Virus record (IMG/VR): IMGVR_UViG_3300020401_001027
Span: 1-33,244 of that record
DNA: 33,244 nt
Origin: a virus
Strand: one strand, 5' to 3'
Position 1 is the stretch's first letter; every line of letters begins with the position of its first letter. Below, one piece after another: positions 15,078 to 22,624 of this stretch. A program made the translations under genes and the position numbers. The notes beneath the pieces are model-generated. The model saw nothing but the letters and a program-made list of their open reading frames with translations. It searched no databases and had not been told where the DNA came from.

Positions 15078-15235
15078 CATCAACAAGTGAGGGTTCCCCC
15101 ACATTTGTTTTACACGCCTTACCAGGACTAAACAGCGTGTCTAAACAACAGTCCTTCATACCCACTCTGGAGGGTAGAGTGGGAATACTATACTCAGTAC
15201 CACCCCGTACTACTACATAACCCTTTTTCAAAACA
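15078..15235 (+). promoter_or_regulatory. Structured 5' leader of psbA
   Basis: Gene-free leader. CCCACTCT (15161-15168) pairs perfectly with AGAGTGGG (15176-15183) around a GGAGGGT loop that looks like a ribosome-binding sequence. AGTAC (15196-15200) pairs with GTACT (15207-15211). No Shine-Dalgarno sequence lies directly before the ATG at 15236. RNA motifs called PhotoRC are known upstream of psbA in cyanobacteria and their phages; I cannot confirm that this is one. Confidence 0.5.
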
Positions 15236-21939: not shown

Positions 21940-22087
21940 AGTAATTAATGAAAGCATTGCAAAGAGTCTCCTCTCTCAGGCAGGAGAACTCCTAGGTGGT
22001 GAGATCAAGTATATGGTATGCACTGACAGGACCACAGAGCACAGGAAGGTGGTCATTGAGTGGGACCATCAGGAAAAAGGGGATTGA
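21929..22087 (+). CDS. Small protein of unknown function (GTG start)
   Basis: 52 residues from GTG 21929; TTGGAGGA lies about eight bases upstream, and no ATG gives as good a spacing. Soluble, alpha-beta character (NESIAKSLLSQAGELLGGEI then KVVIEWDHQEKG). Its stop codon overlaps the -35 of the riboswitch promoter. Function unknown. Confidence 0.5.
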   Translation: MSNKVINESIAKSLLSQAGELLGGEIKYMVCTDRTTEHRKVVIEWDHQEKGD

Positions 22088-22113
22088 CACATATATAGTA
22101 TATGGTCTATACT
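22084..22113 (+). promoter_or_regulatory. Sigma70-type promoter for the riboswitch operon
   Basis: TTGACA (22084-22089), 18 bases, TATACT (22108-22113). Transcription would start at about 22119-22121, directly at the first helix of the riboswitch-like RNA. Confidence 0.72.
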
Positions 22114-22121
22114 AGACACAT

Positions 22122-22180
22122 CGTTCATCAAACCACTATGGTTTGACGCAAGTAAGTCGCGGAACGGAGCCGTTCATCCC
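22122..22180 (+). promoter_or_regulatory. Glutamine riboswitch, downstream-peptide type (putative)
   Basis: CGTTC (22122-22126) pairs with GAACG (22162-22166) to form the closing helix. AAACC (22130-22134) pairs with GGTTT (22140-22144). The bulge/E-loop sequence GACGCAAGTAAGTC (22145-22158) sits between, as in downstream-peptide and glnA RNAs, which bind L-glutamine. A second CGTTCATC at 22171-22178 repeats 22122-22129 exactly and can pair with the same GAACG, so two folds compete. GGAG (22166-22169) is the likely ribosome site of the next gene. Placement before a short ORF in a cyanophage matches the known distribution of downstream-peptide RNAs. Confidence 0.8.
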
Positions 22181-22357
22181 ATGATTGATGTTTTACTTTC
22201 AATGAATCTTGATTGTGCTGCGGTCAAGGACATCATTGCCAGGACCAAAGCTAATGATAATCTCATTGGAATTGTGAAAACTGAAATAATTGAAGTTCTT
22301 AAAGAGCACTCAACTGAGTATCTTGAACTTGAATGTGAATGGGACGCAAACGACTAA
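22181..22357 (+). CDS. 58-residue peptide controlled by the riboswitch
   Basis: It begins three bases after the second CGTTCATC arm of the riboswitch-like RNA. The peptide is acidic and helical (MIDVLLSMNLDCAAVKDIIA; IVKTEIIEVLKEHSTEYLEL). It differs from the basic glutamine-synthetase inactivating factors known in cyanobacteria, so that role is not supported. Genes behind downstream-peptide RNAs typically encode short peptides of unknown function; this fits. It is soluble. It is followed by a DUF4278-like gene in the same unit. Confidence 0.7.
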   Translation: MIDVLLSMNLDCAAVKDIIARTKANDNLIGIVKTEIIEVLKEHSTEYLELECEWDAND

Positions 22358-22366
22358 AGGAACGGG

Positions 22367-22389
22367 CCTAAAAATCCAACTACTTTAGG
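22367..22389 (+). other. Hairpin over the ribosome site of the DUF4278-like gene
   Basis: CCTAAA (22367-22372) pairs with TTTAGG (22384-22389). The latter contains part of the TAGGAG ribosome site of the gene at 22400, so folding would lower its translation. Confidence 0.45.
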
Positions 22390-22399
22390 AGTAACTACC

Positions 22400-22567
22400 A
22401 TGAACACCCTTAATCTGATCAAAAAGCAGATCGTTAAAGCAGCAGCTCTTCATGATGCACAGATTTCTCACACTGCATATCGTGGTGTAGAGTATGACAC
22501 ACGTTGTGTTGAGTCAAAGGATCCCCATGGAACCTTCTGCTATCGTGGAAAGACTTACACCAAATGA
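22400..22567 (+). CDS. DUF4278-like small protein
   Basis: 55 residues with TAGGAG ten bases upstream. Two YRG repeats are visible: AYRGVEYDT (27-35) and CYRGKTYTK (47-55), the hallmark of the cyanobacterial DUF4278 family as I remember it. The family has no established function. It is therefore a host-derived gene and probably co-transcribed with the riboswitch peptide. A terminator follows 33 bases downstream. Confidence 0.72.
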   Translation: MNTLNLIKKQIVKAAALHDAQISHTAYRGVEYDTRCVESKDPHGTFCYRGKTYTK

Positions 22568-22600
22568 TAGTTGCCAAGACTATCAAAGAGTGATAGAGTA

Positions 22601-22624
22601 GGGGGTAGTAATACCCCCTTTTTT
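22601..22624 (+). terminator. Intrinsic terminator of the riboswitch operon
   Basis: GGGGGTA (22601-22607) pairs with TACCCCC (22612-22618), GTAA loop, followed by six T residues. Confidence 0.9.

Follow-up and report, generated by a model that had tools for sequence, protein, structure and literature searches.

The window, i.e. the whole stretch of 33,244 nucleotides analyzed here, derives from a cyanomyovirus genome, as indicated by psbA/psbD, a PhotoRC-II RNA and T4-like genes, the cyanomyovirus gene names having been assigned by inspecting translations. It contains a promoter-to-terminator unit of ~500 nt with two small genes, a 58-aa ORF and a 55-aa DUF4278-like gene (gene 2). The sequence-only reading had described the 5' part of this unit as an early-type promoter followed by a glutamine riboswitch of the downstream-peptide type, and the promoter and the strings that it named are all present: CGTTC at 22122 and 22171, GAACG at 22162, GGAG at 22166, the AAACC 22130/GGTTT 22140 helix and the core GACGCAAG at 22145. 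The element is, however, bigger than that reading supposed, as GAACG (22360-22364), CGACT (22351-22355) and a CTAAAG/CTTTAG helix, which are decisive parts of it, lie further downstream. The features are as follows.

15099-15196: PhotoRC-II RNA (RF01717, 59.4 bits), directly 5' of psbA (15236)
22084-22113, + strand: sigma-70-like early promoter TTGACA-18-TATACT, a promoter-like site with 11/12 matches
22105-22117, + strand: palindrome GTCTATACTAGAC spanning the -10 box, just 5' of P1 (from the sequence)
22122-22126, + strand: P1 5' strand CGTTC, pairing with 22360-22364 (RF01739 alignment of the relative L082)
22129-22145, + strand: P2 hairpin CAAACC/GGTTTG (covariation, 65 distinct segments)
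22145-22154, + strand: core GACGCAAGTA (J2/3) with C22149 as the linchpin base (RF01739 core match; covaries with 22365)
22155-22159, + strand: P3 5' strand AGTCG, covarying with 22351-22355 across the ORF
22162-22175, + strand: inner hairpin a, GAACG-GAGC-CGTTC, holding the GGAG ribosome site of the ORF (conserved)
22177-22182, + strand: hairpin b 5' strand TCCCAT, extending into the ATG, covarying with 22339-22344
22181-22357, + strand: embedded ORF, 58 aa, PHROG 504 (1.8e-15), ending WDAND-stop
22339-22344, + strand: hairpin b 3' strand ATGGGA, covarying with 22177-22182
22351-22355, + strand: P3 3' strand CGACT, covarying with 22155-22159
22354-22359, + strand: CTAAAG, 5' strand of a helix masking the second ribosome site, covarying with 22383-22388
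22355-22357, + strand: TAA stop of the ORF, overlapping P3 and J3/1 (same position in 144/155 relatives)
22356-22359, + strand: J3/1 AAAG, family consensus GAAG (RF01739 alignment of L082)
22360-22365, + strand: P1 3' strand GAACG and linchpin partner G22365 (L082 alignment, linchpin covariation)
22383-22391, + strand: CTTTAGGAG, 3' strand of the masking helix and ribosome site of gene 2, covarying with 22354-22359
22400-22567, + strand: gene 2, 55 aa, DUF4278-like, PHROG 545 (PF14105 E 0.00087; PHROG 545 3.2e-35)
22600-22624, + strand: intrinsic terminator closing the unit, terminator-like with an 8-pair stem and then a T run

Comparable -35/-10 elements stand 5' of the riboswitch in many relatives. 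The arms of the -10-box palindrome vary in sequence among relatives while their complementarity is kept, with a stem of at least 5 in 177/311 compared with 22/311 after shuffling. The palindrome is also retained in L056 and L108, which carry a late-type ATAAATA motif instead of TTGAC/TATAAT, and this retention suggests that it is a 5' RNA hairpin or an operator, together with dual early/late control.

Gene 2 of the window matches PF14105 with an E of 0.00087, which is under the curated cut-off, and gene 2 of the relative L001 is over it. At least two DUF4278-like YRG motifs are found in 199 of the 206 readable cases. A DUF4278-like gene 3' of the riboswitch agrees with the type-1 family trait of a nitrogen-related or DUF4278 downstream gene; in hosts, DUF4278 genes stand under glutamine riboswitches of either type and are switched on by glutamine (PMC6316151).

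With the type-1 model RF01739 (glnA), the segment 22120-22170 scores 25.2 bits against a cut-off of 35 (E 0.0032 in 501 nt), a local match that is not significant alone at the scale of the whole window, where the Rfam scan gave no match at this place. The Downstream-peptide model RF01704 (type 2) has no hit anywhere in the window up to E 10, and the host RF01704 copies listed have 36-75 bits. The type-2 identity was rejected on this absence and on the core, which is of the glnA type; what stands of the original proposal is a phage-encoded glutamine-type riboswitch that follows an early-type promoter and lies 5' of a DUF4278-like gene. The window falls under the RF01739 cut-off because the model cannot bridge the embedded ORF. 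The ORF-less relative L082 reaches 46.4 bits across both halves, with P1 closed by the distal GAACG, and L412 reaches 46.5 bits across a P3 insert of 71 nt.

The identity is settled by relatives and not by the Rfam score of the window. The 5' signature pattern occurs in at least 120 viral contigs and the 5' half of the element in 417 phage records, and two extra scans demanding P3 variation bring the collection to 305 distinct elements in total. Their core-to-3'-half distances fall in groups of 8-16 nt (canonical aptamers, 47-61 bits in Rfam), 45-101 nt and 176-281 nt, the last nearly all containing an ORF; two further elements have 606 and 772 nt with a homing-endonuclease ORF in each. A loose pattern scan of genome contigs was set aside, its matches being mostly chance. 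Cyanobacterial hosts carry the short type-1 and type-2 forms. The 3'-half pattern of the split form has no match in 300 Cyanobiaceae-family genomes (1 mismatch allowed), and a host origin of this form was rejected on that ground.

The 58-aa ORF had been placed simply downstream of the aptamer; instead it sits inside it, in the P3 loop; in the window, as in about 155 distinct relatives, the ORF is followed by the aptamer's 3' half. Phage S-ShM2, a phage of Synechococcus WH8102, has this layout near 162.5 kb. Of the first 123 elements, nearly all close the downstream ORF with one fixed DNA word, GACGCAAACGACT[A/G]AAGGAACGG or something very similar, and the last part of this word is the missing type-1 3' half: the P3 3' strand, GAAG and the P1 3' strand. 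Neither half is complete alone. GAAG never precedes the proximal GAACG in the 5' half, and the 3' half has a CGCAAA-type sequence, not AAGTA. Compared with the family core CGGAAGUA and GAAG, the phage element has CGCAAGTA and a matching G after P1; GAAG is present in 101/157 ORF-class relatives, with AAAG in the window. Of the helices that form the three-way junction P1/P2/P3, P2 and the long-range P3 covary, and the P1 strands are present and nearly invariant. The inner (P2) helix covaries strongly in relatives, its arms changing freely but remaining complementary, with a mean of 3.4 bp in 65 different segments compared with 1.3 after shuffling.

The strongest of the covariation tests is the linchpin pair. 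In the solved glutamine aptamer the linchpin G23-C60 is formed on ligand binding (PMC11477058), and the phage bases were equated with G23 and C60 through an alignment made in the present analysis. In 217 of the 219 insert elements the core base is complementary to the one that follows the distal GAACG (C-G 178, G-C 39), and canonical short-P3 aptamers follow the same rule (83 G-C, 2 C-G, 1 other). Taking the proximal GAACG as the source of the partner yields 26 G-G clashes. We relied on tree-based counts, since sister-pair contrasts hold few informative changes; these counts are parsimony on trees of short, possibly recombining sequences, so that the p-values are rough. Judged on the same tree, the distal partner matches 12/12 core-base changes (expected 1.6, p 0.0005), and the proximal pair is broken by 10 core-base changes. 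P3 variants such as AGTCG/CGACT, AGTTG/CAACT and GGTTAAC/GTTAATT, among others, pair across the ORF. At position 4 of P3 there are 3 changes per side, always joint and compensating (expected 0.09), and 9 co-changes in the larger set (expected 1.1). The linchpin and P3 covariation thus favour the distal GAACG at 22360 as the closing strand of P1 over the GAACG at 22162 that had been assigned to it.

Two further helices covary. Hairpin b, TCCCAT(G)/(C)ATGGGA, links the start of the ORF to its end and is 99% paired over four positions, with 10 compensatory co-changes at positions 1, 4 and 5. The variable position of the masking helix CT[A/G]AAG/CTT[T/C]AG has 18 compensatory co-changes and 1 break.

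We conclude, with a probability of about 0.74, that the element is a type-1 glutamine riboswitch with a complete small gene in its P3 loop. It is type-1 by architecture and linchpin, and glutamine would be its ligand by this kinship. The phage core has C where the solved aptamer has G23, one of the two residues stacking on the ligand (PMC11477058). Since C for G23 and AAAG for GAAG are two core differences in the window, its glutamine affinity may differ from that of the solved aptamer.

The same data bear on other arrangements of these strands. A compact aptamer formed by CGTTC 22122 and GAACG 22162, which toggles with CGTTC 22171 and controls the peptide ORF only, has its strands present and conserved, a predicted fold of -73.5 kcal/mol near the minimum of -73.9, and the 25.2 bits of RF01739 on its local stretch. 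Nevertheless, the proximal GAACG fails the linchpin covariation and lacks a preceding GAAG, and P3 is without a local partner whereas its distal partner covaries, so that we reject this arrangement as very improbable. The toggle itself, in which GAACG 22162 pairs with either CGTTC copy, was part of the sequence-only reading and is possible; its three strands are nearly invariant. It is likewise very improbable that the locus holds tandem aptamers, in which CGTTC 22171 and GAACG 22360 would compose the second and its P2 loop would contain the ORF. The second half alone does reach 35-40 bits with RF01739 in some ORF-less relatives, hairpin b covaries, and true tandem glutamine aptamers occur in related viruses in the present data. 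But AAGTA is absent from this half, there is no covariation between its core base and the distal base (8 C-C clashes among ORF elements), and it is the first core that P3 and the linchpin join to the distal half.

A similarly slight probability is given to a competing inner type-2 fold, in which an evolved OFF state resembling the host downstream-peptide aptamer is built from CGTTC 22171, hairpin b, CGCAAACGA and the masking helix, GAACG 22360 serving as the pseudoknot partner. Compared with the type-2 core CGCAGUUcGA and the type-2 P3 hairpin with its GAACGGG loop, the inner half has CGCAAACGA and a helix that covaries and carries GAACGG in the loop, at shorter spacing. The order of elements is that of host type-2 RNAs, the masking helix corresponds to the type-2 P3, and L082 scores 28.1 bits with RF01704; this score is nevertheless under the cut-off of 33, the spacing differs, and the inner core base is unmatched to the distal base in a subset. 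Perhaps the type-2-like inner half is a relic of strand-swapped tandem aptamers; as a working ligand site we give it low weight. Least probable of all is a structured phage leader that descends from a glutamine aptamer but has lost glutamine binding, serving instead to couple translation or as a binding site for a protein. The changed core position 23 and the altered J3/1 in the window would suit such a leader, but the linchpin pair, which forms on ligand binding (PMC11477058), survives 12 compensated changes, and gene 2 is of the type found under host glutamine riboswitches (PMC6316151).

In the split type-1 aptamer, the embedded ORF is, judging from its codons and products, a gene. Differences over 46 disjoint pairs number 453 at third, 298 at first and 128 at second codon positions. 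The peptides have a hydrophobic N-terminus and exactly two cysteines in 153/154, and the start of some looks signal-peptide-like by eye; the two-cysteine peptide is possibly exported. The peptide of the window has no match in Pfam or NCBIfam. In 144/155 the stop codon comprises the final P3 base plus two bases at the start of J3/1. The GAG loop of hairpin a, which completes the GGAG ribosome site, is found in 118/156 ORF-bearing compared with 1/47 ORF-less insert elements. Where the ORF ends earlier, the RNA 3' half is still present, and it is therefore constrained as RNA; conservation of the 3' half as protein (the DAND tail) was rejected, as it is kept with an upstream ORF end and in ORF-less elements.

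The best reading is a glutamine ON-switch for the DUF4278 gene that would have a two-cysteine peptide encoded inside its sensor. In the absence of glutamine, CTAAAG at the ORF stop would pair with CTTTAG and hide the ribosome site of the DUF4278 gene (OFF). On glutamine binding, P3, J3/1 and P1 would occupy the CTAAAG strand and leave this site free (ON), the direction known from host type-1 switches. Aptamer and mask would be mutually exclusive, because the masking helix uses the CT and J3/1 bases of P3 and the core. When the masking helix is imposed on the predicted folds of 28 relatives, the mean cost is 0.01 kcal/mol, and the helix fits the predicted minimum-energy fold in nearly all of them; the nested aptamer fold lies above the predicted minimum by 1.6 kcal/mol in the window and 0.5-11 kcal/mol in the 28 relatives. 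A cheap masking helix and a nested aptamer above the minimum would fit default-OFF, glutamine-ON control of gene 2. Even with the window in its predicted nested state, the second ribosome site could be hidden by a CCTAAA/TTTAGG hairpin.

The ORF would be translated from its own ribosome site in the inner hairpin, so that ribosomes must open the aptamer and terminate in its core. The opening of the aptamer by translation follows from the geometry; its regulatory effect would be a coupling of the ORF and the DUF4278 gene by ribosome passage. We tentatively raise, as an idea that is somewhat doubtful, a two-gene reciprocal switch, in which the peptide is made only while the sensor is open and the DUF4278 protein while it is closed, glutamine selecting between them and the ribosomes that pass and terminate on the embedded gene resetting the sensor. 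If so, a single RNA segment, combining stop codon, aptamer core and switching strand, would be contested by sensing and translation.

Type-1 and type-2 RNAs have been known since PMC2864571, and glutamine riboswitches are already known in cyanophages and pelagiphages (PMC9964418, PMC9602691, PMC9004378). Type-1 riboswitches (RF01739, e.g. gifB of Synechocystis) share with the phage element the P1-P2-core-P3-GAAG-P1 order, the linchpin and a downstream DUF4278 gene, and the host versions are ON switches (PMC6316151). In the phage element, the core and the 3' half are instead 176-281 nt apart, P3 houses a gene, and the linchpin is in most cases C-G rather than G-C. Type-2 RNAs (Downstream-peptide, RF01704) control DUF4278 genes in marine picocyanobacteria (PMC6316151) and have similar CGTTCA...CGCA...GAACGG strings, but their host core is CGCAGTTCGA, they contain no embedded ORF, and the window has no match to the family. 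The pelagiphage/methylophage riboswitches (Melnitz, PMC9004378) are likewise phage-encoded type-1 aptamers; they are described as tmRNA-linked, and the available part of that paper makes no mention of an ORF in the aptamer. The glnA RNA of cyanophage S-CREM1 (PMC9964418) belongs to the same RNA family and also resides in a cyanophage, yet it appears as an Rfam match only, with neither a split form nor an embedded ORF described in the portion available.

A search of the available literature yielded no description of an ORF or gene inside any riboswitch aptamer, and a search for glutamine riboswitches with DUF4278 yielded none of the split layout. Group I/II introns house homing-endonuclease ORFs in a peripheral loop of a structured RNA. 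The phage element resembles them in having an ORF in a loop, but it is no ribozyme and its usual ORF encodes a two-cysteine peptide, not an endonuclease. What appears to be new is a known aptamer class split by a protein-coding gene and kept so in many cyanophages, the signature being present in hundreds of phage genomes. Riboswitch aptamers are treated and searched as compact leader domains, and standard Rfam scans miss or misplace the split form because a gene divides the aptamer. A split riboswitch would show that a ligand-binding fold is able to span a translated gene, would tie phage gene expression to host glutamine, and would be a natural system for studying competition between ribosome and ligand. 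PHROG 504 and the DUF4278 phage genes, whose function is unknown, would gain a regulatory context.

P3 tolerates insertions, as seen from ORF-less inserts of about 45-100 nt and from two inserts with homing endonucleases. The latter ORFs (PHROG 314 / 10820) lie in the loop of hairpin a in L075 (+ strand, from 1590) and L314 (- strand, from 592), in one case adjoining a normal embedded ORF, and L040 has an apparent degenerate remnant of such an insert. The slot of the embedded ORF holds several unrelated-looking peptide families (PHROG 504, PHROG 13397 and others), almost every peptide having exactly two cysteines. A second kind of insert in P3, about 71-76 nt with a repeated GCAAGTA-like string and no ORF, is found in L412 (1182-1296, - strand) and in the viral glutamine aptamers L427, L439, L263, L423 and L451. 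ARAGORN detected no tmRNA in six loci carrying this different insert.

True tandem type-1 glutamine aptamers, with a separate P3 in each, occur in the viral contigs L399 (1006-1117), L401 (1692-1796) and L433 (4159-4270), and L399 also carries a freshwater-2 RNA (1648-1728). Paired glnA-like pattern matches at 2200-2306 of L144 and 968-1048 of L147, in records labelled Alphaproteobacteria and SAR86, are possible tandem glutamine aptamers outside cyanobacteria.
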